Below are positions 18,690 through 35,660 of a stretch of 42,182 nucleotides of DNA, piece by piece. The DNA comes from Methanomassiliicoccaceae archaeon (GTDB taxonomy: Archaea > Thermoplasmatota > Thermoplasmata > Methanomassiliicoccales > Methanomethylophilaceae): NCBI GenBank assembly GCA_031285205.1, contig JAITWO010000039.1:1-42182 (forward strand), given 5' to 3'. The position numbers and the translations under genes are program-made. Within the stretch, counting starts at the first letter, position 1. The number at the start of each line of letters is the position of its first letter. The notes beneath the pieces were generated by a model. It searched no databases. It was not told where the DNA came from and saw only the letters and a list, made by a program, of their open reading frames with translations.

Positions 18690-20072
18690 ATGGTGGCATC
18701 AAAACCTGTATCTGTCTTTGAGGCGTATGATAGATTCCTCAATGGCAAAAAGGCGAGAGAGGACACGTGGGACTACGTGACGGTCCCGAACAATGCCGCG
18801 TTGATCAAGAATAGGTACTACCTTGAATTCGGAAAGAAAATAATACCTGAAGATAAAGACATCATGAACCGCCTCTTTCAGGCAGGTGTCGATATGCTCG
18901 TAGAGACAGGTTTCTTTAATCCGGATCTCGGAAAGGTGATGTACGTAACGGAGGATGAGATCTTCGAAGGCATAAAAAAAGCCACCAAAAAACTAAGGTT
19001 GGGTCACGGCAAGGACGAAGTTGTCTGCGAGCGTCGCCACGGAAATCCCTCCCCGAAACCCATAATCCAGGGAGGGCCCACGGGGGCCCCTGTTTCTGAA
19101 GATATATTTGTGGCAATGATGCAGTCTTATGCACAAGAATCCACCGTCGACACGTTAGTGAGCGGCGTAATGTCGACGGTGGACGGCCACGCACCCACCG
19201 CAAATACCCCGTGGGAAATCAAGGCGACGCTTGCAGAGATAAGAGCAGTGAGAGAAGGCATGATCAGAGCCGAGCGCCCCGGGATGGCAATATAGGGGCC
19301 GCAAACCCCGCTGTCCGCAGCCGGACGTCTCGTCTCAAGCTTCCAATGCGGCTTGGAAAGAACGGACCTGCATGAGTGCTCACAACTTAACGAGATGAAG
19401 ATGGATATGACGGGATTGAACATGCTCGCCGGTTGGGCGGTGAACGGCGATACGATAATGACAGAGCAGATGCCCATCTTCGGCGGATACTGCGGCGGGG
19501 TCGAGGAGACGGCGATATGCGATGTCGCAACAACGCTTGCATCGTTCGTCATGTTCAATTCGCACATACACCTTGACGGCCCCATCCACATCAGATGGGG
19601 GATAACAACGGCGCGCGAGACGCTGCAGATATCGTCCCATGTCGGGGCGGCGCTGGACCTCAACACCGACCTTCTGCTCTCCAACCAGTACTATCCTACT
19701 GCCGGCCCGTGTACGGAGATGTGCCTCTTGGAGACGGCAGCACAAGCGATAGCGGACACAGCATCCGGAAGGGAGCTCATATCGGGATCGGCGGCATCTA
19801 AAGGAGTTGCCCGCGATAAGTCCACTCCCATGGAAGCAAGGATAATGGGAGAGGCGGCGATAGCCACCGCCGGCATGAATGTCGCCGACGTCAACGAGAT
19901 ACTGGACCTCCTTATCGGCAGCTATGAGGCTGAATTCCACCATCCGCCGAAGGGCAAACGGTTCCAGGAATGCTATGACCTGAAGACGCTTACCCCGTCC
20001 GCCGAATATATCGGCGTGTATGAGAACAGCATACAGATCCTCAAAGAGATCGGCCTCAAAATGAAATACTGA
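18690..20072 (+). CDS. mtmB: Monomethylamine methyltransferase, copy 1 (contains pyrrolysine)
   Basis: MtmB transfers the methyl group of monomethylamine to the cobalt of the corrinoid protein MtmC. The reading frame is 460 codons plus TGA, interrupted only by UAG at codon 202 (19293-19295), the position of pyrrolysine in Methanosarcina MtmB. Family blocks flank it: PIIQGGPTGAPVSEDIF before, and TEQMPIFGGYCGGVEET, LDGPIHIRWGITTARET, NQYYPTAGPCTEMCLLE and ASKGVARDKSTPMEARIMGE after. Frame and homology on both sides show UAG is read through. It has no mtmC beside it; tRNA-Pyl and pylSBCD follow. It is clearly diverged from the copy at 27254-28639. Confidence 0.95.
19293..19295 (+). other. In-frame UAG pyrrolysine codon of mtmB copy 1
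   Basis: Codon 202 of the reading frame is TAG, flanked by ERPGMAI and GPQTPLSAAGR. The position equals Pyl202 of known MtmB. tRNA-Pyl (anticodon CUA) is encoded 0.9 kb downstream, which supports decoding as pyrrolysine. Confidence 0.93.
19307..19324 (+). promoter_or_regulatory. Stem-loop 3' of the UAG codon (PYLIS-like)
   Basis: CCCGCTG-TCCG-CAGCCGG can form a 7-bp stem with one C-C mismatch and a 4-nt loop. It begins 12 nt after the UAG, the same distance as the perfect version in mtmB copy 2. A stem-loop (PYLIS) has been proposed 3' of UAG in Methanosarcina mtmB; a functional need for it is not established. Confidence 0.5.
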
Positions 20073-20162
20073 CCCTCTCACCGCAACAGGCCTCTGATCC
20101 ATCATCCAAACGATTTTACATCCGTTCCAGGGACCGATACGGAATAACAAAAACGTTATATA

Positions 20163-20170
20163 TTTTATAC
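20163..20170 (+). promoter_or_regulatory. TATA box of the tRNA-Pyl gene
   Basis: TTTTATAC lies 26 bases before the first tRNA nucleotide, the usual archaeal TATA distance. It sits in an A/T-rich stretch (20155-20180) between the mtmB stop and the tRNA. It may also serve the pylSBCD-ramA genes that follow. Confidence 0.5.
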
Positions 20171-20195
20171 CCATAAATAAAAGCCGGTCGACATT

Positions 20196-20262
20196 GGGGG
20201 ACGCTCTGGGAGCGGTAGGCCTCTACAGCCGCGCTAGCGGGGTTCGATTCCCCGGTCTCTCG
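20196..20262 (+). tRNA. pylT: tRNA-Pyl, anticodon CUA
   Basis: A compact 67-nt tRNA lies between mtmB and pylS. The acceptor stem is GGGGGAC paired with GTCTCTC, with discriminator G; CCA is not encoded. The D-arm is GCTC-TGG-GAGC with a loop of only three bases. The anticodon loop CTCTACA (20221-20227) carries CUA at 20223-20225. The T-arm is CGGGG-TTCGATT-CCCCG. The anticodon stem is interrupted: three pairs (GGC/GCC), then unpaired bases (A opposite GC), then two pairs (GT/GC). The same interruption is known for tRNA-Pyl of Methanomassiliicoccales such as M. alvus. It would be charged by the PylS encoded just downstream. Confidence 0.93.
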
Positions 20263-20284
20263 CTTTATGTCCGGGGGGATATTC

Positions 20285-21100
20285 ATGAAATTCACGGAAT
20301 CGCAGATACAGCGTTTAAGAGAGTTCGGTGATGACAGTTACGATTCCGATTTTGATACCCCGGAAGAGCGGGAAAAGGCATTCTCTAAGATATTGGGAGG
20401 CCTCACGTCAAAGAACGACAGATCCGTTGCCGACATCATCACAGGCCCGAAGCGCCACCTGCTGCCGAGGTTCGAGGCCGAACTTGCAGATATATTGACG
20501 AAGAACGGGTTCATTGAGGTGAGAACGCCGCTGATCATCTCAAAGGCATCTCTGGAGAAGATGACGATAACGCGAGAATCCCAGCTGTACAGGCAGGTGT
20601 TCATGATAGATGACAAGAGATGCCTCCGCCCGATGCTCGCTCCGAACCTCTACTTCGTGATGAGAAAACTGAGGGACAAGACGCCAGGCCCTGTAAGGAT
20701 ATTCGAGATCGGCTCCTGCTTCAGGAAAGAATCAAAAAGCAATAATCACCTTGAGGAGTTCACGATGTTGAACCTGGTCGAACTGGGCCCTGACGGAGAC
20801 CCTACGGATATTCTGAAGAAGCATATATCGGATATAATGAACGCGACCGGTCTTGATTACAGGATGACCGAGGAGTGCTCCGAGGTTTACAAGACAACGC
20901 TGGATGTGGAGGTCGACGGGGTAGAGGTGGCATCAGGGGCCGTCGGCCCGCATGTGCTTGACCGTGCACATGACATCCATGAGCCGTGGTGCGGGGCGGG
21001 GTTCGGCCTGGAACGCCTGCTCATGGAAATGACGGGGAAGACCAACGTGAAAAAGGTTGGCAGGAGCCTTGTCTATCTGAACGGTGCAAAAATAGACTGA
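20285..21100 (+). CDS. pylS: Pyrrolysyl-tRNA synthetase, catalytic domain only
   Basis: This class II synthetase charges tRNA-Pyl with pyrrolysine. The 271 residues correspond to the catalytic PylSc domain alone; no PylSn is fused and none is seen nearby, as in the PylSn-lacking type of Methanomassiliicoccales. Class II motifs are visible: motif 2 RIFEIGSCFRKES...HLEEFTMLNLVE, and motif 3 GAGFGLERLLM. The Asn in MLNLV and the Tyr in EVYKTTLDV match active-site positions of M. alvus PylRS. ATG 20285 is chosen because MKFTESQIQRLREFG aligns with other N-termini and a GGGGGAT site lies 5 nt upstream; ATG 20267 is only 5 nt after the tRNA. Confidence 0.94.
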   Translation: MKFTESQIQRLREFGDDSYDSDFDTPEEREKAFSKILGGLTSKNDRSVADIITGPKRHLLPRFEAELADILTKNGFIEVRTPLIISKASLEKMTITRESQLYRQVFMIDDKRCLRPMLAPNLYFVMRKLRDKTPGPVRIFEIGSCFRKESKSNNHLEEFTMLNLVELGPDGDPTDILKKHISDIMNATGLDYRMTEECSEVYKTTLDVEVDGVEVASGAVGPHVLDRAHDIHEPWCGAGFGLERLLMEMTGKTNVKKVGRSLVYLNGAKID

Positions 21101-21109
21101 AGTGATAGA

Positions 21110-22153
21110 ATGTATGAGGCGATATTGGAAAAGGCATCGGAAGGCCGCGGGATCGGTAGGGAAGAGATAGAGAAGCTTCTCTCCATTGACGATCCGGATA
21201 CGCTGAGCAGCCTTTTTGAGACTGCGCACAGCATAAAAAGAAAGAGCTTCGGAGACCGGGTGTTCACATACGGCTTCGTTTACTTCTCAACGTATTGCAG
21301 GAACAACTGCTCATTCTGTTATTACCGGAAGAGCAACGGCATAGAAAGGTACCGGAAATCGGCTGATGAGATCGTTATGCTTTCAGGGGACCTTCAGGAT
21401 AACGGCGTGAACCTCGTCGACCTGACGATGGGAGAGGATAATGTCATGCACAACGACAACTGCAGGGAACTTGTGGACATAATCGGCAAAGTGAACTCGG
21501 CCGTCTCAATACCGATAATGCTGTCCCCCGGGGCGGCAAAGGAATCTGTGTTCCCGCTGTTCAGGGATTCCGGCGCGGACTGGTTCGCCTGCTATCAGGA
21601 AACGCATAACCGCGATCTTTTCTCAAAGAGACGGATAGGACAGGATTACGACCACCGTTACAGCCAGAGGGACTGGGCGAGGAAGTACGGCATGCTGGCT
21701 GAGGACGGGATCATGGTGGGTATCGGCGAAACGACAGGAGATGTTGCAGACTCCATCGTTAAGATGGGTTCCCAGGGGTGTGAGCAGATACGTGTCATGA
21801 CGTTCGTTCCGCAGGAAGGGACGCCGATGTCAGCGTCCCTGCGGAAAAACAGAGAGGATGAGTTAAAGGTCATAGCGGTGATGAGACTTGCGCACCCCGA
21901 CAGGCTTATACCTGCAAGCCTCGATGTGGAAGGCATCGAGGGCCTGGTGCCGAGGATAAGGGCCGGGGCGAACATAGTTACGTCGATAGTCCCGCCGCAC
22001 ATGGAACTGGCGGGCGTTGCGAACAAGGATCTGGACATAGAGAACGGGATGAGGTCGATAGACCATGTGATCGATGTCCTGGAGACGGAAGGATGCGTTG
22101 TCGGATCGAACAGCGATTACAGCAGCCTTCTGAGACGGATGAGGGCGATCTGA
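21110..22153 (+). CDS. pylB: 3-methylornithine synthase PylB (radical SAM)
   Basis: A 347-residue radical SAM enzyme that rearranges L-lysine into (3R)-3-methyl-D-ornithine, the first step of pyrrolysine synthesis. The iron-sulfur motif is Cys63-x3-Cys67-x2-Cys70 (TYCRNNCSFCYY). The region DLTMGEDNVMHN and the SAM-binding MVGIGETTGD are typical of PylB, which is related to biotin synthase and HydE. A GTGAT site precedes ATG 21110, nine bases after pylS. The stop overlaps pylC by TGATG. Confidence 0.95.
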   Translation: MYEAILEKASEGRGIGREEIEKLLSIDDPDTLSSLFETAHSIKRKSFGDRVFTYGFVYFSTYCRNNCSFCYYRKSNGIERYRKSADEIVMLSGDLQDNGVNLVDLTMGEDNVMHNDNCRELVDIIGKVNSAVSIPIMLSPGAAKESVFPLFRDSGADWFACYQETHNRDLFSKRRIGQDYDHRYSQRDWARKYGMLAEDGIMVGIGETTGDVADSIVKMGSQGCEQIRVMTFVPQEGTPMSASLRKNREDELKVIAVMRLAHPDRLIPASLDVEGIEGLVPRIRAGANIVTSIVPPHMELAGVANKDLDIENGMRSIDHVIDVLETEGCVVGSNSDYSSLLRRMRAI

Positions 22154-23298
22154 TGAAGCTTGGGATATTGGGCGGCGCGTTGCAGGGAACGGAGGCGGTA
22201 TACCTCGCGAAGAAGGCAGGATATGAGACATTTGTCATCGACAGAAGGAAGAACGCGCCCGCGCTGTCGTTGGCGGACGGACATGCCGTTCTTGACCCTA
22301 TGGAACAGGAAAGAGAGGCGATGCGCATATTCAGCGACTGTGATGCCGTCATGCCTGCGTGTGAAAATCTTGATGTCCTCTTGAAACTGAACGATATGCT
22401 AAAAGGTTCGGACATACAGCTCCTTTTTGATATGAGCTCGTACCTGGTATCGTCATCGAAGACCGCTTCCAACAGGATGATGGAACACATCGGGGTCCCC
22501 ATACCTAAGAATTGGCCGGAATGCGGGTACCCGGCGATAGTTAAGCCGTCAGGGCAGAGCGGCAGCGTGGGTGTGACCCTCGCCTATAGCGAAAAAGATG
22601 TCAGGGACGGAATTGAGAAGATCATCGGGATGGGTGACGAGCCGGTGATGCAGGAGTTCGTCTCCGGCAAGAGCGTGAGCATCGAGATAATCGGGAACGG
22701 GAAGGAATTCAAGCCGTTCGTCACCACTGAGATAATATTGGATAAAAAATATGATTGCAAGAGGGTCCTATGTGCCCCGGGCATCCTGAACAAAGAAAAA
22801 GATGAAGAATTCAAGGCGATCTCCGAGAAGATGGCTGAACATATGGAACTGAAGGCATTGATGGACGTTGAGGCCATCGACACCGTCAGAGGCCTCAGGG
22901 TGCTGGAGATCGATGCCCGCATACCAAGTCAGACGCCGGCGGCAGTACTGGCGGCGACAGGGATAAACCTGCTTGAGGAGACGGTCTCGTTCACCGGCAG
23001 GAAAGCAACGAACGGTGCGGCATCGTATGAACATTTTGTTATTACCGGCGGAGAACTGATAACCTGCGGTGAAAAGGAATTCGCGCGTGTCAGTCAACCC
23101 AGATTCGTCCGCGGGTTGTTCGGTTCGGATGAGATGATCACCGATTATGAACCCGGTGCGGGCACATGGAGATGCACCATGATCAACGGCGCATCATCCG
23201 AAAAGGAATTGGAAAAGAAACGTGCCAGATGCATAGCGTCAATAATGAGCGAGTGTAAATTGAAGAAGTTCGTAGATGAATCTCCGGAGATGATCTGA
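22153..23298 (+). CDS. pylC: 3-methylornithine-L-lysine ligase PylC
   Basis: A 381-residue ATP-grasp ligase that joins 3-methyl-D-ornithine to the epsilon amine of lysine, the second pyrrolysine step. The N-terminal pre-ATP-grasp strand is LGILGGALQGTEA. The ATP-grasp glycine loop is VKPSGQSGSVGVTL (from Lys131), and the Mg/phosphate motif is LEIDARIPSQTP (residues 251-262). TGATG overlaps at both ends couple it to pylB and pylD. A diverged relative lies at 33574-34743; this copy keeps all expected catalytic features. Confidence 0.95.
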   Translation: MKLGILGGALQGTEAVYLAKKAGYETFVIDRRKNAPALSLADGHAVLDPMEQEREAMRIFSDCDAVMPACENLDVLLKLNDMLKGSDIQLLFDMSSYLVSSSKTASNRMMEHIGVPIPKNWPECGYPAIVKPSGQSGSVGVTLAYSEKDVRDGIEKIIGMGDEPVMQEFVSGKSVSIEIIGNGKEFKPFVTTEIILDKKYDCKRVLCAPGILNKEKDEEFKAISEKMAEHMELKALMDVEAIDTVRGLRVLEIDARIPSQTPAAVLAATGINLLEETVSFTGRKATNGAASYEHFVITGGELITCGEKEFARVSQPRFVRGLFGSDEMITDYEPGAGTWRCTMINGASSEKELEKKRARCIASIMSECKLKKFVDESPEMI

Positions 23299-24155
23299 TG
23301 ACGAGACTGACCGCAGACCTCATCAAGGATGTACCCTCGCACGTGCCCCGTCTTGATGATGAGCTCAATGATAAGATAGGGATGGACATGCGGACCTTTG
23401 CGTGCTATGCGATGGACGTGGATATCAAAGACCTCGATTTTGACAGATATACGGTCGCCATCGTTCCCGTCACATCCGGCGGAGGAGTGATAGGAGGATT
23501 CTCAGCATCCGTGGCCGCTGCGGTAGGGGCGATGGGGATGCGCTCATTCGTTACCGGTGCGTGCGATGTCACCGGCGTCGCGGAGGCGTTCTCGTCCGGC
23601 GCGGACATAATATTCATGGCGGATGACGAACGGTTCATCGCCCTGAACACAAGGACCCGGTCCTTCTCGGACAACATATGGTCGACCGCAAAGGGATATG
23701 TGACAGCATTGAAACTTGCGGAAGGAGGGCTTGAAGGGAAGACCGTCCTGGTGATAGGTGCCGGAAGGGTCGGGACGGAAGCGGTGAAGATCCTCAGGGA
23801 AGAGGGTGCCTCCGTGGAGGTGACCGACATACTTCACAAAAGGTCGGTGACACTTGAAAACAGATTCGACAACGTCAAAGCGAAAAAGGACGTTAAACAG
23901 GCTATAAAGGATAACAGACTGATACTGAACGCTTCCCCGGGACTGATATCCGGCGATCTGATACAAAATGGCGCCGTCATATCGTCGCCCGGCGTACCGT
24001 ATGCGTTCGATGCGGAGGGCGAAAGGAAGGCGAAAGTGATAATCCATGACGTCCTCAGCCTCGGTGTTGCGGTTATGGCGGTATCGAGTGTTTGTTTATC
24101 ATTGTTCAATATTCCCGCAGCGGGCGTCGTTGCGGAAAAGCTGGTGATATCGTGA
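23298..24155 (+). CDS. pylD: Pyrrolysine synthase PylD
   Basis: A 285-residue NAD-dependent dehydrogenase that oxidises 3-methylornithyl-lysine so that it cyclises to pyrrolysine, the final step. The Rossmann motif is VLVIGAGRVGTEAVKIL near residue 150. The N-terminal SHVPRLDDEL and the segment VTSGGGVIGGFSASVAA match PylD. The start overlaps the pylC stop (TGATG), and its own TGA overlaps the GTG start of ramA. The coupling suggests pylS-pylB-pylC-pylD-ramA is one transcript. Confidence 0.94.
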   Translation: MTRLTADLIKDVPSHVPRLDDELNDKIGMDMRTFACYAMDVDIKDLDFDRYTVAIVPVTSGGGVIGGFSASVAAAVGAMGMRSFVTGACDVTGVAEAFSSGADIIFMADDERFIALNTRTRSFSDNIWSTAKGYVTALKLAEGGLEGKTVLVIGAGRVGTEAVKILREEGASVEVTDILHKRSVTLENRFDNVKAKKDVKQAIKDNRLILNASPGLISGDLIQNGAVISSPGVPYAFDAEGERKAKVIIHDVLSLGVAVMAVSSVCLSLFNIPAAGVVAEKLVIS

Positions 24156-25768
24156 CATATGGAATAGCATTGGATATAGGTACGAGCGGCTTAAGATGCC
24201 AGGCGATTGATCTAGATACAAGGGAGACCGTCTCCACGGCAATGACGTCACGCCATCCCGTCCCCGGGATGAACGTGATAGATCATGTGAATTTCGCCAT
24301 GGATGCGGGCAGGGATGTGGCGAACGCCCTTATGATCAGAGCGATAAACAACCTGTTCAAACTTCTGAACATAGATCTCTCTAAGGTAAGCAGGATCGCG
24401 GTGTGCGGAAATCCCTTCCAGTTATCAATATTTCAGAACATTGAGATAAGGGACCTTGCGTTCGCCGGAAAATCGATGATACAGAGGCTCGGGATCGTGC
24501 CGCCGGACAGGAACGGGGCCATTGTAAAAGCATCTGATATGGGTATAATCGGCATCAACGCAGATGTTCTGATCCCTCCTGCGGTCACACACGAGATAGG
24601 TGCGGATGCCATGGCGATGCTCACGGAGACCGGCGTCCTGGAAAAAGAAGGGACGAAGATCGTCGTCGACTACGGAACGAATGCGGAAATGGCCCTGATC
24701 CATGACGGCAAGATATTGACCGGTTCGGCGGCGGCGGGCCCGGCGATGGAGGGCCAGCAGATAAAGGACGGCATGCTGGCCGCGCCCGGTGCGATATCCA
24801 ATATCGAACTGACGGACAAAGGGTGGAAGTGCTATGTTCTGGACGAGGCGCTGCTTCCGAAGGAGGGGGATACCGTGGACCCGGTCTCCGGTAATGTTGT
24901 CGTAAAGGGCGAGATGCACGGCAAGGCGATAGGCATAACGGGGACGGGAGTGGTCGCGGCGATAGCGTGCGGTTTCGACTCCGGGCTCGTCACAGGTTCA
25001 AAGGTCAATACTCCGAGCGGGTCGCTGCACCTGCAGGACGGCATAGTCATCGATTCCAAGGATATCGACGAGGCCGGAAAAGCAATAGGTGCCCTGCGTG
25101 CCGGCTATCTCACACTGATGATGGAGGCAGGTATATGGTGCGAGGATGTGAAATATGCGTACATGTCCGGTGCGTCCGGTCTGTATGTGGACGCCAAAAA
25201 GGCACAGAAGATCGGGATGGTCGCACCGTGCGCAGCAGAAATGATACAGTATGGTAACACGTCCATCATGCTTGCCAGAAGGTTGGTGATGGGCGAAAGG
25301 ACCATGGACGAACTCAGGGAGATGACAAAGCAGCTCAGGGCCCAGCACTGCATGTTCGCCTCGTCCCAGGCGTTCAAGGACATCTATTCCGTTGAGATCT
25401 CACTGTGGTCTTACGGGATGCCGTGGTCCGCATACAATGACATGATGGATGTCTACGGGCTGCAGCATGTGCCCGATTCCGTCGCTGATTCAAGATCTGA
25501 GCGCAAATCCGCGACGGACCTTCCGGAACTCAGGGGGAAGAAGGTGGAGATCCTCAGGGATGCGGGCGTCATGCTCACAGGTAAAGTGGAAGGATGCATA
25601 TCATGCGGCAAGTGCGTCAAGGAATGCCCCGAATCGGCCATACAGGTTGACAACGCCGTGATAACCGTGAACTCGGAGAGGTGTATGGGAACTGCGTGCA
25701 GACGTTGCGAGATGGATTGTCCCAAGAAGGTCCTGCAGATCAAAGATCTTAAGATCAAGGCTGTGTGA
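24152..25768 (+). CDS. ramA: RamA, ATP-dependent reductive activator of methylamine corrinoid proteins
   Basis: A 538-residue iron-sulfur protein that uses ATP to reduce inactive Co(II) in MtmC back to Co(I). The N-terminus YGIALDIGTSGLRCQAIDL is the actin/ASKHA phosphate loop, and VVDYGTNAEMAL is a second ATP-site strand of this DUF4445-type fold. Two C-terminal [4Fe-4S] clusters are encoded by CISCGKCVKECP and CMGTACRRCEMDCP. Length equals Methanosarcina RamA. The start is GTG at 24152, overlapping the pylD stop (GTGA); an upstream in-frame ATG would lie inside pylD. Association with the pyl genes ties it to methylamine use. Confidence 0.93.
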   Translation: MTYGIALDIGTSGLRCQAIDLDTRETVSTAMTSRHPVPGMNVIDHVNFAMDAGRDVANALMIRAINNLFKLLNIDLSKVSRIAVCGNPFQLSIFQNIEIRDLAFAGKSMIQRLGIVPPDRNGAIVKASDMGIIGINADVLIPPAVTHEIGADAMAMLTETGVLEKEGTKIVVDYGTNAEMALIHDGKILTGSAAAGPAMEGQQIKDGMLAAPGAISNIELTDKGWKCYVLDEALLPKEGDTVDPVSGNVVVKGEMHGKAIGITGTGVVAAIACGFDSGLVTGSKVNTPSGSLHLQDGIVIDSKDIDEAGKAIGALRAGYLTLMMEAGIWCEDVKYAYMSGASGLYVDAKKAQKIGMVAPCAAEMIQYGNTSIMLARRLVMGERTMDELREMTKQLRAQHCMFASSQAFKDIYSVEISLWSYGMPWSAYNDMMDVYGLQHVPDSVADSRSERKSATDLPELRGKKVEILRDAGVMLTGKVEGCISCGKCVKECPESAIQVDNAVITVNSERCMGTACRRCEMDCPKKVLQIKDLKIKAV

Positions 25769-25777
25769 ACAGCCCGA

Positions 25778-25865
25778 CCCCTTTTATTTCATATCCTCTT
25801 TTTGAACTATTGATCAAAAATTAATGTAAAGGCCGCAGAGCGGCCTGGCCCCTTTTATTTCATAT
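25778..25865 (+). terminator. Terminator region after ramA with duplicated T-rich word
   Basis: The 17-mer CCCCTTTTATTTCATAT occurs twice, at 25778-25794 and 25849-25865. Before the second copy is a perfect hairpin GGCCGC-AGA-GCGGCC (25831-25845). Hairpin plus T-rich tract, and T tracts alone, act as archaeal terminators, so this probably ends the pyl-ramA transcript. Confidence 0.55.
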
Positions 25866-25896
25866 GTCTTCGGGCCGGCGAGAGAGTCCTCTATAC

Positions 25897-25935
25897 CACG
25901 AAATAAAAAGGTAAAGGATGTGGCCTGTGGCCACA
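25897..25935 (-). terminator. Terminator after the Rh/Amt channel gene
   Basis: Read on the minus strand, the hairpin TGTGGCC-ACA-GGCCACA (25919-25935) is followed by a CTTTTTATTTC tract. It lies 14 bases past the channel gene stop and would end the mtmC-mtmB-channel transcript, facing the ramA terminator. Confidence 0.6.
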
Positions 25936-25948
25936 GTGTTTCTTCTTT

Positions 25949-27193
25949 TTAAGCGGGTGCGTCGTTCTTTATGAAGTCGGCATCATCACTGAACATCTTA
26001 TCGTCCTGGAAGCTTCCGCGGGTAGCCCTTATCAGGAGACCCACAAGCATACCGAGCACAAGTGTTATGATGAATACGCCTACTGCCGCAAGGAGGTTCG
26101 TGAATGCTTCCTCGATCGTTGCGTTATACGCAAGAGCGATCACACCGACGAATGCACCTAACCATCCGGCCACTCCGTGCAGGTTGTGCACTCCCATCAC
26201 ATCCAGTGCACCGATCTTCTTGCAGAAGACCGGGTGCAGGTAGATGAACGACAGAGCGGATATCGCACCAGCAATTATACCGACCACTATGGCTGCCCAG
26301 GGGCCGACCATTATGAGAGGAGTACCGATAGCTACCGGACCAGCAAGCATCGCGTACGTATAGATCAACGGGTTGACCTTCTTCTGTATCGCGGTGCACA
26401 CGATCCATGCGCTTACTATTGAACCTATGCCTGCCATGTAGCAGCACATCATTCCCCAGAACACCTGTTCTGCCGGAAGCAGCGCTGTCACGAATGACGG
26501 CCAGAGGACCCACAGTAACATCGATGCGAGCCATACGAACGACACGCTGTGCGTTGTTGTGTACATCGGCTCATCGAACGCCCTCTTCTCCCTGATGGCT
26601 ATTGCGACACCCACACCGAAGTATGCTGCGAACATGTGCACGAGCATTGAACCTCCGGCGTCAGACGCTCCGTATCCGAACAGGGAAGCGAGGAGTGCGT
26701 CGGTGGAGACATTGCTGCCCGCGAAGCCGAACATGAACCACTCGATGATCACGAATGCCGGCGCGAACAGTATACCTACAACGAAGTACTGCCACATCTT
26801 GATGTTCCCGAGGAAGCACCCTATCGCGATGACCACAGTTATGGCGCATATGACCGCCATGAGCATCAGGTCCTGGTTCCACGTGTCGCCTATCACGAAG
26901 TCGTGTATCGCCAGGTACACAATGAAGCTACCTGCTGCGGACAGGAGAACTGCCAGAGCTACACCCCACTCATATTTCTTAATGAACAACATCAAGAAGG
27001 CCACAAGCATCAGCATGAACCATATCATGACGTTTTTAACGAACTTCATATTCTCGAAGGATACATCGCTTGCGGAAGTGCCCCCGGTCGAAAAGTCGAA
27101 CGCCAGCGCTCCGCCGGACGTAAGGACTAATGCGAAGACCCCGAGTATTGCGAGGATGGCCAAAGAGAATATAGCCTTTATTTTCATCTGCAT
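25949..27193 (-). CDS. Rh-type ammonium/methylammonium channel
   Basis: A 414-residue membrane protein of the Amt/Mep/Rh family with about 11 hydrophobic segments and a hydrophobic N-terminus. The two pore histidines sit in GSMLVHMFAAYFG and DVMGVHNLHGVAGWLG. The GVHNLHG form is the Rh signature; classical AmtB has a GVHGVGG-like motif. It starts 61 nt after the mtmB copy 2 stop, with AAGGTGAG before ATG 27193, so it ends the mtmC-mtmB operon. Amt-type genes next to methylamine methyltransferases are thought to import methylamine; here monomethylamine uptake is inferred from context and ammonium transport is not excluded. Confidence 0.85.
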   Translation of the reverse strand: MQMKIKAIFSLAILAILGVFALVLTSGGALAFDFSTGGTSASDVSFENMKFVKNVMIWFMLMLVAFLMLFIKKYEWGVALAVLLSAAGSFIVYLAIHDFVIGDTWNQDLMLMAVICAITVVIAIGCFLGNIKMWQYFVVGILFAPAFVIIEWFMFGFAGSNVSTDALLASLFGYGASDAGGSMLVHMFAAYFGVGVAIAIREKRAFDEPMYTTTHSVSFVWLASMLLWVLWPSFVTALLPAEQVFWGMMCCYMAGIGSIVSAWIVCTAIQKKVNPLIYTYAMLAGPVAIGTPLIMVGPWAAIVVGIIAGAISALSFIYLHPVFCKKIGALDVMGVHNLHGVAGWLGAFVGVIALAYNATIEEAFTNLLAAVGVFIITLVLGMLVGLLIRATRGSFQDDKMFSDDADFIKNDAPA

Positions 27194-27253
27194 TTTCTCA
27201 CCTTTTAAGGAAATAATAAAGGGTTTGGTAAAGGGTTTATGGAATGGCGAACC

Positions 27254-28639
27254 TTAGTTCTTTATTTCGAGACCGAAGCCCGCGAGCGCCTTGACCGCTC
27301 CTTCGTAGACCTTGAGGTACTCTGCTGTCGGTTTGACGGTGAGCACATCGTAGCACTGGCGGAAGTCCTTTCCTGCGGGAGCCTTGGCGTAGTTCTTCTC
27401 GTAGCTCGAGACGAGCTTCTCGAGGATCTTGTTGACATCCGCTATCTTCATACCGGCTGTCGCCTTTGCTGCCTCTCCCATGATCCTTGCTTCCATACCG
27501 GTCGTCTTGTCCTGGGCAACACCCTTCGCTGCTGCGGAACCGGAGAGGAGCTCTCTTCCGGATGCTGTGTCAGCGATGGCCTGTGCCGCGGTCTCCAAGA
27601 GACACATCTCTGTGCAGGGTCCTGCGATCGGGTAGTACTGGTTCGCGAGGAGCAGGTCCGTGTTGGCGTCGATTGCTGCTGCAACGTGCGCCGCTATCTG
27701 GATCGTCTCTCTCGAGGTGGTGATACCCCATCTGATGTGGATCGGACCGTCGAGGTGGTAGTTGCCGTGGAAGAGAGCGAATGAAGCGAGTGTTGATGCA
27801 ACATCGCAGATCGCGGTTTCCTCGACCATTCCGCAGTATCCACCGAAGATCGGCATCTGCTCGATCATGATGGTGTTACCGTTCTCGACCCAGCCGGACA
27901 GCATGTTCAGTGCGGCCATGTCCACTTTCAGTTCGTTCAGCTGTGAGCACTCGTGTGAGTCGCACGGCCTCATGCCGCAGAACCTCATGTCTGATGCGAG
28001 ACGTCCCGCTGCGGACAGCGGGGTCTCAGGTCCCTATATGGCGATGTACGGTCTGCCGGCCCTGACGGTTGCTTCCCTTACTCCCCTGATCTCGGCCATA
28101 AGAGCGCGAATTTCGTACGGGGTGTTGGTTATCGCCGGGTGGCCCTCGATCGTGGCCATGACACCGTTGACGATCGTGTCGACGACCGACTCCTGTGCGT
28201 ATGACTGCATGACCTGAACGAAAACGTCCTCCGAAACCGGGGCTCCTGTCGGTCCGCCCTGGATGATCGGCTTTACCGGGCTGTTGCCGCGGCGGGGGTA
28301 GAAGCGTGCGCAGTCCCTGCCCTCTCCGAGGATGATCTGCTTCGGGGTCTTCTTTATACCCTCCCATACATCTGTCTCGCTGATCTTGAGGACCCTCTTG
28401 AGGTCAGAGTTGTAGAAACCCGTGCTGACGAGCATCTCAAGGCCTGCGGCGAACAGGTTGTTCATTGTTGATTTGTCCTCGGGGACCATGTTCTTGCCGA
28501 AGTTGAGCTTGTACTTGTCTTTCAGTTTTGTCGCGTTCGTCGGGATTATGTCGTAGTCCCACTCATCTTCTGTGAGTTTCTTCCCTGCGAGGAAACCGTC
28601 GTATACATCGCATATGGTAAGCGGTCTTGCTGTTGCCAT
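27254..28639 (-). CDS. mtmB: Monomethylamine methyltransferase, copy 2 (contains pyrrolysine)
   Basis: This is the second MtmB, 461 residues, acting on monomethylamine with MtmC as methyl acceptor. UAG is in frame at 28034-28036. With ATG 28639 as start it is exactly codon 202, matching the known Pyl202, which supports this start over the GTG at 28648; GGGTGA lies 6 nt before the ATG. The active-site blocks IEQMPIFGGYCGMVEET, LDGPIHIRWGITTSRET, NQYYPIAGPCTEMCLLE and AAAKGVAQDKTTGMEARIMGE are complete. It directly follows mtmC, as in Methanosarcina, so it is probably the main copy. The two copies differ throughout and are old paralogues, not a recent duplication. Confidence 0.96.
28005..28022 (-). 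promoter_or_regulatory. Stem-loop 3' of the UAG codon (PYLIS-like)
   Basis: On the coding strand CCCGCTG-TCCG-CAGCGGG forms a perfect 7-bp stem with a 4-nt loop, starting 12 nt after the UAG. Copy 1 has the same element at the same distance with one mismatch. The surrounding 28 nt are almost identical between the two genes although they diverge elsewhere. Confidence 0.55.
28034..28036 (-). other. In-frame UAG pyrrolysine codon of mtmB copy 2
   Basis: TAG at codon 202 lies between GRPYIAI and GPETPLSAAGR. Homology continues without a break on both sides, so it is read as pyrrolysine and is not a stop. Confidence 0.94.
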
Positions 28640-28644
28640 TCTTT

Positions 28645-29289
28645 TCACCCCTTCTTCATGAGCTTGTTAACAAGCTCGACGATCTCTGCACCGTTCTCGG
28701 AGTAGCCGTCCGCCTTTATCTCGTCGCACCATTTCTGGGTGACCGGGGCGCCGCCGACTATGACCTTGAATGAGGCTTTCGCTTCCTTGACTGCCTTCAC
28801 CATCTGACCCTGGACCTGCATGGTCGTGGTCATGAGTGCTGATCCGCCGAGGATGTTCGCGTTGTTCGCTGCGCCGCTCTCCATGAATGCCTCGGGAGAT
28901 ACGTCCGGGCCCAGGTCGAAAACCCTGTAGCCGGCACCGCGCATCATTGCGCAGCACACGTTCTTTCCGATCTCGTGGATGTCACCCTGAACGGTACCCA
29001 TTATGACGGTACCCTTCATCACGTTGGGGTCTGCCTGCATAAGGGGTGCGAGCAGTTTGAGCGCGAGCTCCATCGTCTTCGAGGCTGCAACCACCTGCGG
29101 GAGGTATATCTCAGCTTTGTCGAATCTGTCGCCTATCGTCTCCATTCCTTTTCCAAGACCGTCCTGAACAATTATCTTCGGAGAGATCTTGGCCTCTATC
29201 GCCGCTTTGGTGGCACTCTCAGCGAGCTTCAAGTTCCACGTCTCAACGGACGTTTTGAGGTCCTGTAATATCTTCTTGTCGTCTGCCAT
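28645..29289 (-). CDS. mtmC: Monomethylamine corrinoid protein MtmC
   Basis: A 214-residue cobalamin-binding protein that carries the methyl group from MtmB to the CoM methylase MtbA. An N-terminal helical cap domain is followed by the B12-binding Rossmann domain. The signature is complete: GDIHEIGKN (Asp103, His105 as lower cobalt ligand), GGSALMTTT and VGGAPV. ATG 29289 has GGTGA five bases upstream. Its TGA lies inside the GGGTGA ribosome binding site of mtmB copy 2, so the two are coupled. It is the only mtmC in the window and may serve both MtmB proteins. Confidence 0.95.
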   Translation of the reverse strand: MADDKKILQDLKTSVETWNLKLAESATKAAIEAKISPKIIVQDGLGKGMETIGDRFDKAEIYLPQVVAASKTMELALKLLAPLMQADPNVMKGTVIMGTVQGDIHEIGKNVCCAMMRGAGYRVFDLGPDVSPEAFMESGAANNANILGGSALMTTTMQVQGQMVKAVKEAKASFKVIVGGAPVTQKWCDEIKADGYSENGAEIVELVNKLMKKG

Positions 29290-30007
29290 TTTATTCACCA
29301 CGTTGCACATCCTTACCCGAGAACCGTTTTACCGGGTCCGAGGCGCGGATGTAGGCTATAAGGCCGGTCCCTATCTACACTGTGATAAGAAGGCGTCTCC
29401 AAACTTGCGCAGTTGAGGAAACACGCCTTTCTTTTTTCAGACGCATCCGTCATCATCAGCGTTTCATCGGGGCGTTATGGTATAGATCCATGACCCAACC
29501 TTGCCGGAGAAACGAACCGTACGAATGTATATAAAATTATCTTAGAGTCCGGCTCGCTTCGCCGAACTATTATATTAATGTTTCTGATACTTACTAAACA
29601 CGTTAATACTGGTATAAAAAAGTTCCTTTTTTTAAGCCCGCTGTGACCAGCTCCGCGGACGCATTTCCGCGCCTAGGGCCGCCTCGCATAACAAACACGG
29701 CGGAGTGATGCGAATGCATCTATGCGTAACGGGCATTCCTATCCTAACTTATATAAGTGAGGGTATCATGTGTATAGCTATATTGAATAGATATATCGTC
29801 CGTCCGATTGTTGTGAAAAATGTCGGCGGATGAGGCAGTAACCTTCACATGATTTTGGTTGCACTCCGGAGAACGGCGGGGCGCGTGCCTCTGTATTTTA
29901 AAAGTAAAGTCTTAGAGATATCCTGTGTTGATGACGGCAACACGCCGCGCCCCTCTGCAACAGCCGGGGTGCGGAAAGATATAACTGATTGATGCTTATC
30001 CGTAAGC
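29290..30007. other. 718-nt intergenic region with promoters and several inverted repeats
   Basis: No convincing gene is seen between the divergent mtmC and YchF-like genes. A TATA-like CTTATAGCC on the minus strand (29354-29362) may start mtmC with a leader of about 44 nt. A hairpin with AAGGCGT/ACGCCTT arms (29392-29429) followed on the plus strand by a T-run (29430-29437) looks like a terminator but has no gene upstream. Other inverted repeats are CGCGGA/TCCGCG near 29654-29671, GTGTTG/CAACAC at 29925-29943, and the 8-bp GGGGCGCG/CGCGCCCC pair at 29878-29885 and 29946-29953. An unannotated RNA is possible but not shown. Confidence 0.45.
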
Positions 30008-31199: not shown

Positions 31200-33590
31200 A
31201 TGGGCAATTGGGACGTAAGACTGATAAGTGCATCATACAGGCCGGACGGCGACGGCGTCATCGTTGAATTGTTCGGCAAGACCCGTGACAAGAGGTCTGT
31301 GGTCATGCTCGACAAAAGGACCCGGCCGTATTTCTTCATCGTTGAGCCGCGGGAGAGCGTACGCGCCGAATTGAGCAAGGACGCCAACGTCCTGTCCGTC
31401 GATGAGAGTCGCCTGTTCCATAAGGGGACGGAACGGAATGTCATCAAGGTCACCATAAAATATCCGTGGGATGTGCCATCGTACCGCAACAGGTGGAAAA
31501 GAGACTATACCATACTTGCCGCCGACATCCCGTTCCATCACAGGTACCTTTACGACAACGACATGGGGGCATGCATATCTGTATCTGGCGAAGAGATAGA
31601 GAACACATACGCGACGGACCTCGCCGTTGAGCTATCATCGTTCGAGAACATCGAGCCGTTCGACCCTGGCCTCAGGATACTGTCGTTCGATATAGAGAAC
31701 AGCATCTCCGACGGAACGATATATACCGTATGCGCGGTCATCGGCGAGGACGGCGCCATAAGGGAATGTGAGCCCATACGAGGTAATGAGAAGGATATCA
31801 TCGAAAGGTTCTCCGAACTCATCCTGAAAGAGGACCCGGACGTGATAAGCGGATACAATATCGACAACTATGACATCAAAGTGATGACCGAAAGGGCCGA
31901 GAAGAACAAGATCCGCGAGATCAGATGGGGGAGGGACCGTGGGAATCCTAAGGTTGTGAGCGAGAAGTTCTGGAGGCTGAAGGGGAGATTGGTCATAGAT
32001 GCGTGGTGGGCGGTGAGGAGAGAACTGCGTCCAAAACAGGAGACGCTGAACGCCGTCTCCATGCAACTGCTCGGCGAACAGAAGATGGATGTAGACCCGA
32101 AGAAGATGGACCTGGAGTGGAAGAACGATCCTGACAAGGTGATCAGATACTGCATGAAAGATGCGGAGCTGTCGCTCAGGATACTGAACAAGTTGGGAAC
32201 GGTCAGGAAAGGTATGGACCTCGCCGCTGTTTCAAAACTTCCGCTGGAGGATGTCCTCACGTCCGGTTCATCGCAGCTCATCGATTCCATCCTGATCCGG
32301 AAAGCGGACCGTCTGAAGGTCGGCGTGCCGTTGACAGGGGACTTCTCCAGGACAGATCATATTGAGGGAGGATATGTGCACACAATGGCCCCCGGATTAT
32401 ATCACTGGGTCTGTGTACTCGATTTTAAATCCATGTACCCATCGCTGATCATCTCGAAGAACATCTGCTTCACGACCCTGTCCGACAGCGGGGATATACT
32501 GAGCCCCAACGGCGCAAAGTACCTGAGCAAGGAGAAGAAGGTAGGGATACTTCCGGGCATCCTCGACGGCCTGATGAAAGAAAGGGACAGCATCAAAAAG
32601 AGGATGAAGACCGCATCCGGAGCGGAGCATCAGTATCTGGACGGCCTTCAGAATGCCGTGAAGGTCCTCATGAACTCGTTCTACGGCGTCTTCGCATCCT
32701 CCTTCTACAGATTCACTGACAAGAACATAGGCGGCTCCATAACCGCATTCGCAAGGGGCACCGTGACCGGAATAATAAAAGAACTGGAAGCGGAAGGGAT
32801 CCGGGTCATATATTCAGACACGGACTCCATATTCGTGGGGTCTCCGCATGATGACCTTCATGAAACGCGCAACTTCGGAACGTCCCTGGCAAAGCGCTAT
32901 TCCGCCGAGGGAAGGCAGCTGGAGTTCGAGAAGATCATGGAGCCGCTGTTCTCCCACGGTAAAAAGAAAAGGTATGTCGGAAAGGTCGTGTGGCCGGGAG
33001 AGGAGCTCCTGATACGGGGGTATGAGGTCAGGCGCTCCGATTCGTTCGACCTTCAGAGCCGTGTGCTTACCGAACTCTTTGAGAAGATATTGGACGAGAA
33101 GAATGAGGAGGCGGTCGCACTTGTCAAAAAGGCGGTCCAGGACACCATGGCCGGTAAGGTCGACGTCTCGGACCTTGTGATCTCCAGGACGTGCAAGGAC
33201 TTCAGCAGCTATGATTCCCCGGACCGCATGGCCAACGTCCAGGCGGCCAAGAAGATGAAGGCGATGGGTTACGAGTTCATACCTGGCATGAAGGTATCGT
33301 GGATAGTGACAGATTCCTCGGTCACGCCTCAGACGGTGGAACCATACATCAGCGGCGCAGAGTTCAAAGGGCGGCCGGACAACCGATATTACGCAGAACG
33401 GCTGGCAAACATGGCATCGAGGGTCACCGAGGTGTTCGGGTGGGACGAGAAGGACCTTATGCTCGGAAGCCAGCAGGCGACACTGTTCGACACCACTTTC
33501 CAAACGTCCCCCATGCCGTCCGGCAGGGAGGAGAGGAAGGCCGACCCCAGGCCGACCGGGAAGAGAACATCGCTCAAAGACTTTTTTTGA
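31200..33590 (+). CDS. polB: Family B DNA polymerase (replicative/repair)
   Basis: A 796-residue DNA polymerase with 3'-5' proofreading. Exonuclease motifs: I SFDIENS near residue 165, II SGYNIDNYDIK, III YCMKDAELS. Polymerase motifs: A LDFKSMYPSLI, B KVLMNSFYG, and C IYSDTDSIFV near residue 540. The last residues (TSLKDFF) form a sliding-clamp (PCNA) binding motif at the extreme C-terminus. All catalytic aspartates are intact. It is co-transcribed with the YchF-like gene; its last 17 bp overlap the end of the convergent pylC-like gene. Confidence 0.95.
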   Translation: MGNWDVRLISASYRPDGDGVIVELFGKTRDKRSVVMLDKRTRPYFFIVEPRESVRAELSKDANVLSVDESRLFHKGTERNVIKVTIKYPWDVPSYRNRWKRDYTILAADIPFHHRYLYDNDMGACISVSGEEIENTYATDLAVELSSFENIEPFDPGLRILSFDIENSISDGTIYTVCAVIGEDGAIRECEPIRGNEKDIIERFSELILKEDPDVISGYNIDNYDIKVMTERAEKNKIREIRWGRDRGNPKVVSEKFWRLKGRLVIDAWWAVRRELRPKQETLNAVSMQLLGEQKMDVDPKKMDLEWKNDPDKVIRYCMKDAELSLRILNKLGTVRKGMDLAAVSKLPLEDVLTSGSSQLIDSILIRKADRLKVGVPLTGDFSRTDHIEGGYVHTMAPGLYHWVCVLDFKSMYPSLIISKNICFTTLSDSGDILSPNGAKYLSKEKKVGILPGILDGLMKERDSIKKRMKTASGAEHQYLDGLQNAVKVLMNSFYGVFASSFYRFTDKNIGGSITAFARGTVTGIIKELEAEGIRVIYSDTDSIFVGSPHDDLHETRNFGTSLAKRYSAEGRQLEFEKIMEPLFSHGKKKRYVGKVVWPGEELLIRGYEVRRSDSFDLQSRVLTELFEKILDEKNEEAVALVKKAVQDTMAGKVDVSDLVISRTCKDFSSYDSPDRMANVQAAKKMKAMGYEFIPGMKVSWIVTDSSVTPQTVEPYISGAEFKGRPDNRYYAERLANMASRVTEVFGWDEKDLMLGSQQATLFDTTFQTSPMPSGREERKADPRPTGKRTSLKDFF

Positions 33591-34743
33591 ACAGTGACTG
33601 ACCGCTGTCCGTGAACTCGTCTATCCTGTATTCATCCATCATTGACTCTATGCATCCGGCACGCTTCCTGTCCAGTTCATCGGTGTCTCTGGCTGCATTG
33701 ATCATGGCGCACAGCAACGGGCCGTTGTCGAATGTTCTGCCGATTATCATCTCATCGGCACCGAACATCCCTCTCTCCAGATGCGGATAACGTATCCTGC
33801 GGAATTCTGTCTCACCGCAGGCAGTCATCTTCCCGTCCGCGATCATGAAATGTTCGTACGATGATGCGCCGGCGCCTGCGTTCCCGTTGTTCTTATCGCA
33901 CCTCGGATCGATCATCTTGCTCAGCATGTTGATCCCTGTTGCGGCCAGGACGGCCGTCGGCGTCTCGGTGGGGAGGCATGCGTTCAGCTCCACCACCTTC
34001 AGCTCATTCTCCGTGCCGACGGCCTTGACCTCCATCAACGCTTTCAGGTCTATGCTCTCGGCCAGTTTGCAGACCGCGTCCCTGAACTCCTTATCCATCC
34101 CGCCGGCCAGGATGTCCGGTGAGCACACCACTCCCTTGCGATCGCACCGCTCGTTAAGGAAGAACTCCGTTGTCACGAAAGGCATGAACTCCTCTCCGTT
34201 CCCTATCACTTCCATTGAGACGTTCTTCCCTAATGTGAACTCTTCGACTATCGGTTCGTCGCCAGCCCCGATTATCTTCCTTATCGCATTGGTGACCTCT
34301 CTCTCGTCATGTGCTACCGTGAGACCTGCGGCGGGACGGCGGGACGCTGGTTTCACCATCTTCGGATACCCGCATTCCTGCCACCTTTTCGGCGTCTTTA
34401 TCCCTATGTTCCCCATTAGATTGTTCGTTGCGGATCGCGACGATGTTATTGTATAAGAGTCAAAGTCGAAAAGGAACGGTACATCCAGGCGCAGGAGTGC
34501 CTCATACAGCCTGTACAGCGTGTTCATGTCCCTGCACGCCGGCAGCACCGCATCGCAGTCGCCGAGCAGTCTTGCCGCATCGTCCCTGTGTCCCGTCGGG
34601 TCCATGACCACGTATTCGTCCGCGAGTGAGAACGCGGGAGCGTCCCTCGCCCTGTCGATGACCAGCGTCTCGTATCCAGCTTTTCTTGCCAGATATGCTG
34701 CCTCCATGCCCTGCATCGCACCGCCTATGATCCCTATCTTCAT
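33574..34743 (-). CDS. Diverged PylC-like ATP-grasp protein
   Basis: A 389-residue protein aligning without gaps to PylC at 22153-23298 over the first 262 residues: IGIIGGAMQGMEAAYLARKA against LGILGGALQGTEAVYLAKKA, and GDCDAVLPAC against SDCDAVMPAC. It is clearly a PylC paralogue. Two catalytic regions differ. The ATP-grasp glycine loop KPSGQSGSVG has become KPASRRPAAG (residues 131-140), and EIDARIPSQTP has become ELNACLPTETP (252-262), losing an Arg that family members keep. It is full length with no frameshift, so it seems under selection. It may use another substrate, regulate PylC, or be inactive. Start is ATG 34743, with an AGGTG site just upstream. Confidence 0.85.
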   Translation of the reverse strand: MKIGIIGGAMQGMEAAYLARKAGYETLVIDRARDAPAFSLADEYVVMDPTGHRDDAARLLGDCDAVLPACRDMNTLYRLYEALLRLDVPFLFDFDSYTITSSRSATNNLMGNIGIKTPKRWQECGYPKMVKPASRRPAAGLTVAHDEREVTNAIRKIIGAGDEPIVEEFTLGKNVSMEVIGNGEEFMPFVTTEFFLNERCDRKGVVCSPDILAGGMDKEFRDAVCKLAESIDLKALMEVKAVGTENELKVVELNACLPTETPTAVLAATGINMLSKMIDPRCDKNNGNAGAGASSYEHFMIADGKMTACGETEFRRIRYPHLERGMFGADEMIIGRTFDNGPLLCAMINAARDTDELDRKRAGCIESMMDEYRIDEFTDSGQSLFKKSL

Positions 34744-35033
34744 CCCGAGCACCTCTGTTATCTGTTTTTGGCACCGGGCTGCTGCAGTTGCCTTGCAGGC
34801 ATACCGCTCACGAGCGCCGATACCGATTTGGCGGGGCTTGTAGTATACAATATATATCTATTTCTATGAGTTGGATGCCTCTTTGTTTTTTAAATATATA
34901 ATCATTGTTAAGATGCATCCATGCTCCTATTTTTATTAAAGTTTATATACAGGTCAGTTGTATGCGGTCGCTACGTAACATATCGTTACAACGGAGATGT
35001 GCCCTGTGGGGTGAATCCGGAAAGGTGATCTAA
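34744..35033. promoter_or_regulatory. Divergent promoter region of the PylC-like and L15e genes
   Basis: The plus strand has TTTATATA at 34942-34949, a consensus TATA box predicting an L15e transcript start near 34974 and a leader of about 60 nt. The leader holds the small hairpin GTAAC-ATATC-GTTAC (34975-34989) and a full GGTGATC ribosome binding site. On the minus strand, an A/T-rich stretch around 34843-34858 may be the TATA of the PylC-like gene. No gene is seen here. Confidence 0.5.
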
Positions 35034-35660
35034 ATGGCAGATAAGAAAGAAGAGGGCGCCGCCGGTGTGAGCGGCAAGAGCATGTACAGATACATCGCCG
35101 AAGCCTGGAAGAATCCTGACAAGAGTTATTTGAAAGACCTCAACAAACAGAGACGGTACGAGTGGAGAAGGGAAGAGAACTTCTGCCGCGTCGAAAGGCC
35201 CACGCGCCTTGACAGGGCAAGGAACCTCGGTTACAAAGCGAAGCAGGGCTACGTCATCGTAAGAGGAAGGGTAAGGAAGGGTACCTTCAACAAAAGGACC
35301 ATCAAGGGCGGAAGGAGGGCCAAAAGGAAGGGTATTGTCAAGATAACAGTCGGCAAGAGCCTCCAGAGGCTCGCAGAAGAGAGGACGCAGAAGAGATACC
35401 CCAACCTGGAAGTTCTGAATTCATACTGGGTAGGCATGGACGGGCAGTACGAGTGGTACGAAGTGATACTCGTGGACCCGCATCACTCTGTGATAAAAGC
35501 GGACCCGAAGATCAACTGGATCTGCGACCCGGCCCAGAGCGGCAGGGTTTACAGAGGGAAGACCTCCGCCGGACAGAGAGGAAGGGGGCTGCACAAGAAA
35601 GGCAAGGGCGTAGAGAAGTGCAGACCGTCCATAAAGGCCAAAGGCAGAAAAGGAAAGTGA
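35034..35660 (+). CDS. rpl15e: 50S ribosomal protein L15e
   Basis: A 208-residue basic large-subunit protein. [49 protein letters not shown] and [20 protein letters not shown] are the conserved eL15 blocks, and the C-terminus is Lys/Arg/Gly rich. GGTGATC lies four bases before the ATG, a near-perfect archaeal ribosome binding site. It appears to be a single-gene transcript with its own promoter. Confidence 0.95.

Follow-up and report, generated by a model that had tools for sequence, protein, structure and literature searches.

An isolated, diverged PylC paralogue at an ancestral pyrrolysine locus in a Methanomassiliicoccaceae archaeon

The window (the whole stretch of DNA analysed, 42,182 nucleotides from a Methanomassiliicoccaceae archaeon with a draft genome of 1.23 Mb, 87% complete) contains a complete pyrrolysine operon and, in addition, an isolated and diverged paralogue of PylC (PylC2; 33574-34743, minus strand), and synteny within the genus shows that this paralogue was left at an ancestral pyl locus once an mtmB-pyl cluster existed in a second place. 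We infer that the second location arose either by duplication or by transfer. The old-cluster partners of PylC2 were lost one at a time, and PylC2 itself kept an unbroken coding frame as the pylT belonging to it decayed. To the reading that PylC2 is a non-ligating relic, kept as a non-catalytic binder that tunes pyrrolysine flux, we assign a probability of roughly one half (0.48).

The first-pass annotation had placed a complete pylBCD set in the same window, and this set is located at 21110-24155, where pylB (21110-22153), the operon pylC (22153-23298; 325.5 bits against TIGR03909, with every conserved residue present) and pylD (23298-24155) follow pylT (20196-20264; anticodon CTA) and pylS (20267-21100), all on the plus strand. 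The operon pylT was missed by ARAGORN. These genes belong to an mtm/pyl/amt/mtm cluster (18690-29310) between ksgA and ychF. An amber codon is present in each of the two mtmB genes in the window (within the stretches 19293-19392 and 27934-28036), and Rfam gave only sub-threshold matches on the window, namely two weak PYLIS_1 matches at these amber codons (27 and 47 bits, relative to a gathering score of 70) and chance families. PylC2 lies outside the operon, separated from the pylD end by 9.4 kb (first given as about 10 kb), alone between polB (31200-33590, plus strand) and the gene for ribosomal protein L15e (35034-35660, plus strand), the left and right flanks of the ancestral locus; it is convergent with polB, as had been described, and the 3' ends of the two genes overlap by 17 bp (33574-33590). 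Its frame, reported as intact over 389 residues, indeed runs from ATG to TGA with no internal stop. Upstream, on the same strand, are a putative ribosome-binding site read directly from the sequence (GAGGTG, 34750-34755), a decayed tRNA-Pyl relic of 44 bases (34773-34816), found by local alignment to the operon pylT with a score of 31 that about 1 in 1000 mononucleotide shuffles reaches, and a putative TATA-like promoter, GATATATATTGTATAC (34843-34858), which by eye resembles the sequence upstream of the intact pylT-pylC in a genome of the same genus (G052). An intact pylT occupies the position equivalent to the relic in both G052 and another genus mate, G051.

As first proposed, PylC2 proved to be a genuine second PylC whose active site is altered. 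It is 49% identical to the operon PylC (E = 1.2e-123, far beyond chance), aligns with it without gaps over about the first 280 residues (262 in the first-pass annotation), and is collinear with positions 2-374 of the 374 in the TIGR03909 profile, against which it scores 246.3 bits, just below the equivalog cut-off of 248.3. The structure model (pLDDT 90.6, and confident except at the C-terminus, in a loop around residue 285 and in the region of the glycine loop) has the PylC fold, the best match in the PDB being PylC 4ffr (TM 0.82). No family fits PylC2 better than PylC, which is also its best match among solved structures, in sequence as in fold, and membership in another characterised ATP-grasp family was ruled out, PylC being far ahead on both counts. 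A single-protein scan of the genome contigs returned no relatives; an alignment-based scan did recover them. Thermoleophilia and other Actinomycetota MAGs (L213-L229) were also seen to carry pylB-pylC-pylD, some of these clusters with mtmC and pylS as well, their PylCs being about 30-36% identical to PylC2.

The changes first noted in the glycine loop (KPSGQSGSVG to KPASRRPAAG) and in EIDAR (to ELNAC) were recovered in the alignment to the operon PylC, together with others absent from the first-pass annotation: MDVEA to MEVKA (E240K), E71R, Y200C/C202R and PSQTP to PTETP. In the order, 92 distinct full-length PylCs (isolated copies left out) have 57 columns in which conservation reaches at least 98%; of these columns PylC2 departs at 14 (L10M, E71R, K103R, S136R, S138A, Y200C, C202R, D238E, E240K, L251V, D254N, R256C, S259T and Q260E) and the operon copy at none. 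Within the ATP-grasp catalytic set, S136R, S138A, E240K and R256C are altered, and K131 and E252 are kept. In ATP-grasp enzymes, the Glu of MDVEA and the E-x-D/N-x-R motif hold Mg-ATP and the catalytic Arg. Residue roles in PylC2 were assigned by homology to these enzymes, the Glu of MDVEA being taken as the Mg2+ ligand; on this assignment D254N is probably harmless, and E240K and R256C probably are not. Since the glycine loop over the ATP phosphates, the presumed Mg2+ ligand and the motif Arg are all lost, PylC2 most likely cannot form the methylornithine-lysine bond. Among the substrate-pocket residues S177, E179, D233 and T256 (numbering of PMC11467909, fitted to the letters of the motifs by shifting every position by 8), S, E and T are kept and D is replaced by E, which would leave PylC2 with its modelled PylC fold and three of the four literature-named pocket residues.

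A pylC is present at the polB/L15e site in five of eight genomes of the genus, the positional counterparts of PylC2 being those of four genus mates (G049-G052), and other members have a pyl operon there: an mtmB-pylS-pylB operon adjoins L15e in G048 and G054. The isolated pylC adjoins polB in G049 and G050. In G052 and G054 ksgA-ychF-polB is contiguous, and in the window the mtm/pyl/amt/mtm cluster splits ksgA from ychF. We take the genus to include Candidatus Methanomicula of the termite gut. Methanomicula has been described from higher termites (PMC10684969). The old site presents an erosion series, from pylT-pylS-pylC (G050) through pylT-pylC (G051 and G052) to a decayed pylT-pylC (G049 and the window). 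In G050 the genes run mtmB-pylT-pylS-pylC-polB, and a pylS-pylB-pylC-pylD operon lies apart from them. G052 has L15e-mtmB-pylT-pylC-amt-mtmB-mtmC-polB, its pylS-pylB and pylB-pylD being found on further contigs. The operon pylC of G052 has been deleted, leaving between pylB and pylD a short scar, reading ...CTDMIMSERTSKISEMVK, that resembles the PylC C-terminus; since this interval holds only a 3' scar of pylC, both copies once coexisted, and the isolated copy, with motifs intact, is the sole PylC detected in that genome. In G049, a 90%-complete draft, a decayed pylT lies upstream of pylC, and a search for a true pylB, pylS and pylD found none. The assemblies of G049, G051 and G053 cover their pyl regions incompletely.

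The old-cluster mtmB genes of G052, G050 and G051 have no amber codon (L043 3122-4510, L035 4262-5644 and L101 5968-7077, respectively; mtmB and pylC sit on different contigs in G051), the Pyl202 position being Lys (AAG/AAA) and the neighbouring conserved Glu being Leu or Met. Beside polB in G054 there is likewise an mtmB without amber codon, diverged around the Pyl site (L103 8608-9966), and very few mtmB without the amber stop occur among the matches listed for 147 genomes. A first function (tetramethylammonium, choline) was assigned to a non-Pyl MtmB homologue in 2026 (PMC13044021). G050 has, beside an ordinary pylS, an additional pylT and a diverged extra PylRS (L035 5860-6759), 56% identical to that of the window. 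The altered positions of this enzyme presumably correspond to N346, Y384 and Y306 in M. mazei PylRS. Organisms with two PylRSs are rare (PMC9071458).

The argument for an ancestral locus is carried by synteny, and the trees leave alternatives. Support for a clade of isolated copies was 94/88 in a large tree and 90/92 in a smaller one, and the codon model favoured this clade by 9.8 log units; a sister relationship between PylC2 and the operon copy was not rejected by an AU test (p = 0.44). An ancient PylC2 clade proven by phylogeny would be an overclaim on these figures. PylC2 is the longest branch of its own clade, and relationships among the species of the genus are poorly resolved.

Selection was assessed with a self-written GY94 codon model (10 sequences, 375 codons). 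Omega was 0.125 overall and 0.22-0.26 on the PylC2 branch, rough values given that synonymous changes are saturated and that the average is taken over a long branch (about 3.5 neutral substitutions per codon). Omega = 1 was rejected for this branch on three topologies (2dlnL 19-30), so that dN/dS is not near 1, the sign of decay named in the first-pass annotation. A neutral origin of the 14 conserved-site changes (25%) would need about 0.13 substitutions per site, over which the probability of no stop arising is about 0.007 (interpolated, counting stops only, with frameshifts left out), or about 0.05 with conservative changes set aside. With an intact frame beside a decayed pylT, and with an omega of about 0.24 that differs significantly from 1, PylC2 is not yet simply a pseudogene. 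Recent release from selection is possible because omega averages a long saturated branch, and it is conceivable, if rather unlikely, that PylC2 is turning into a pseudogene, all that is left of a redundant pyl cluster, with a frame not yet broken. The stepwise loss of neighbours, which suggests that the PylC2 gene may be next, would fit such decay, as would the decayed pylT, the active-site substitutions private to each copy and the long branch; the unbroken 389 codons and the rejection of omega = 1 speak against it, and four full-length, stop-free degenerate copies would jointly be very unlikely had all long been neutral. On the best reading, PylC2 is, or until recently was, kept as a folded protein, perhaps one that binds pathway substrates.

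Degenerate PylCs account for four of six isolated copies and for none of the 92 other distinct full-length PylCs (Fisher p = 4e-6, for a split into isolated and other copies made after the data were seen), and all four, from different genomes, are full length and free of stops. The G050 copy has K131 changed to R and has lost E240, D254 and R256, and in that of G025 (another genus, beside mtmC/mtmB) residues of the glycine loop and of the pocket alike are gone. The G049 copy shows the opposite pattern, with metal residues kept and the pocket altered (E178D, D238S, Q260R and T261S), which counts against the best explanation. The G051 and G052 copies keep all catalytic residues, and such counterparts, one of them the only PylC of its genome, would be in line with PylC2 still functioning as a PylC, if only weakly, and raising dosage; this is highly improbable, given the loss of E240 and R256 (at least 98% conserved in the 92 PylCs and present in M. 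barkeri PylC) and the intact operon PylC in the same genome. PylC2 and the G050 copy have nine changed columns in common (p = 1e-5) and are never changed to the same residue unseen elsewhere. Joint derived residues that would mark a common new function were sought among the degenerate copies, and almost none were found beyond single positions; one joint new role is therefore disfavoured, and a new ligase activity, though possible, is the less likely reading. The neofunctionalised ligase for another lysine compound suggested in the first-pass annotation thus found no support, catalytic positions being lost and almost no new residues held in common. An active ATP-grasp ligase whose specificity has shifted, so that it makes a different compound derived from lysine or ornithine, has some points in its favour: PylC2 keeps K131, E252, N254 and S176/E178/T261 as well as the modelled fold, engineered PylC accepts other substrates (PMC11467909), and the G049 copy has D-to-S at an engineered-specificity position with its metal ligands kept, but the charge reversal at the presumed Mg2+ ligand, the loss of the glycine loop and R256, the absence of partner biosynthetic genes at the locus and the restriction of common derived residues to single positions make it improbable.

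A non-ligating PylC2 kept as a protein would most likely bind methylornithine or lysine, or associate with PylC, and so tune flux to pyrrolysine; a regulator or decoy of PylC, as also suggested at first, is possible. More tentatively, and at less than even odds, isolated PylCs of the Methanomassiliicoccales may repeatedly become pseudoenzymes maintained by selection, which would bind PylC itself or the precursors of pyrrolysine and control how much of the 22nd amino acid is supplied.

The statement that PylC is normally single copy holds for the most part, the exception being Methanomassiliicoccus luminyensis, in which one of the three pylC stands apart together with a pylT (PMC3941956). PylC2 is like PylC (3-methylornithine--L-lysine ligase; TIGR03909; PDB 4FFL-4FFR) in full-length homology, fold and pyl-cluster origin, and differs in falling below the equivalog cut-off, in its lost catalytic motifs and in its place outside the operon. 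The third pylC of M. luminyensis is, like PylC2, extra and away from the complete cluster; it is accompanied by pylT beside mtmC/mtmB, arose in another family of the order and, in the genome whose three pylC suggest that it is the one described (G015, locus L039), has conserved residues largely intact, unlike PylC2. The PylRS/tRNA-Pyl duplications of Ca. Methanohalarchaeum thermophilum and M. luminyensis likewise involve an mtm-pyl region doubled before some genes were lost; they concern PylRS, and the accessible portion of PMC9071458 reports no degenerate PylC, unlike the case here. No description of a degenerate PylC was found in the literature searched, mostly outside subscription papers.

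The genus offers a readable series in which a genetic-code-expansion cassette was duplicated and then dismantled, with two outcomes: the operon pylC was lost and the old copy relied on (G052), or the operon copy was kept and the old one lost its chemistry (G000, the genome of the window, and G050). Should the dead copy prove functional, the pyrrolysine pathway would, to our knowledge, gain its first member without catalytic activity. For annotation, the series is a warning that the presence of pylC does not equal a working ligase.
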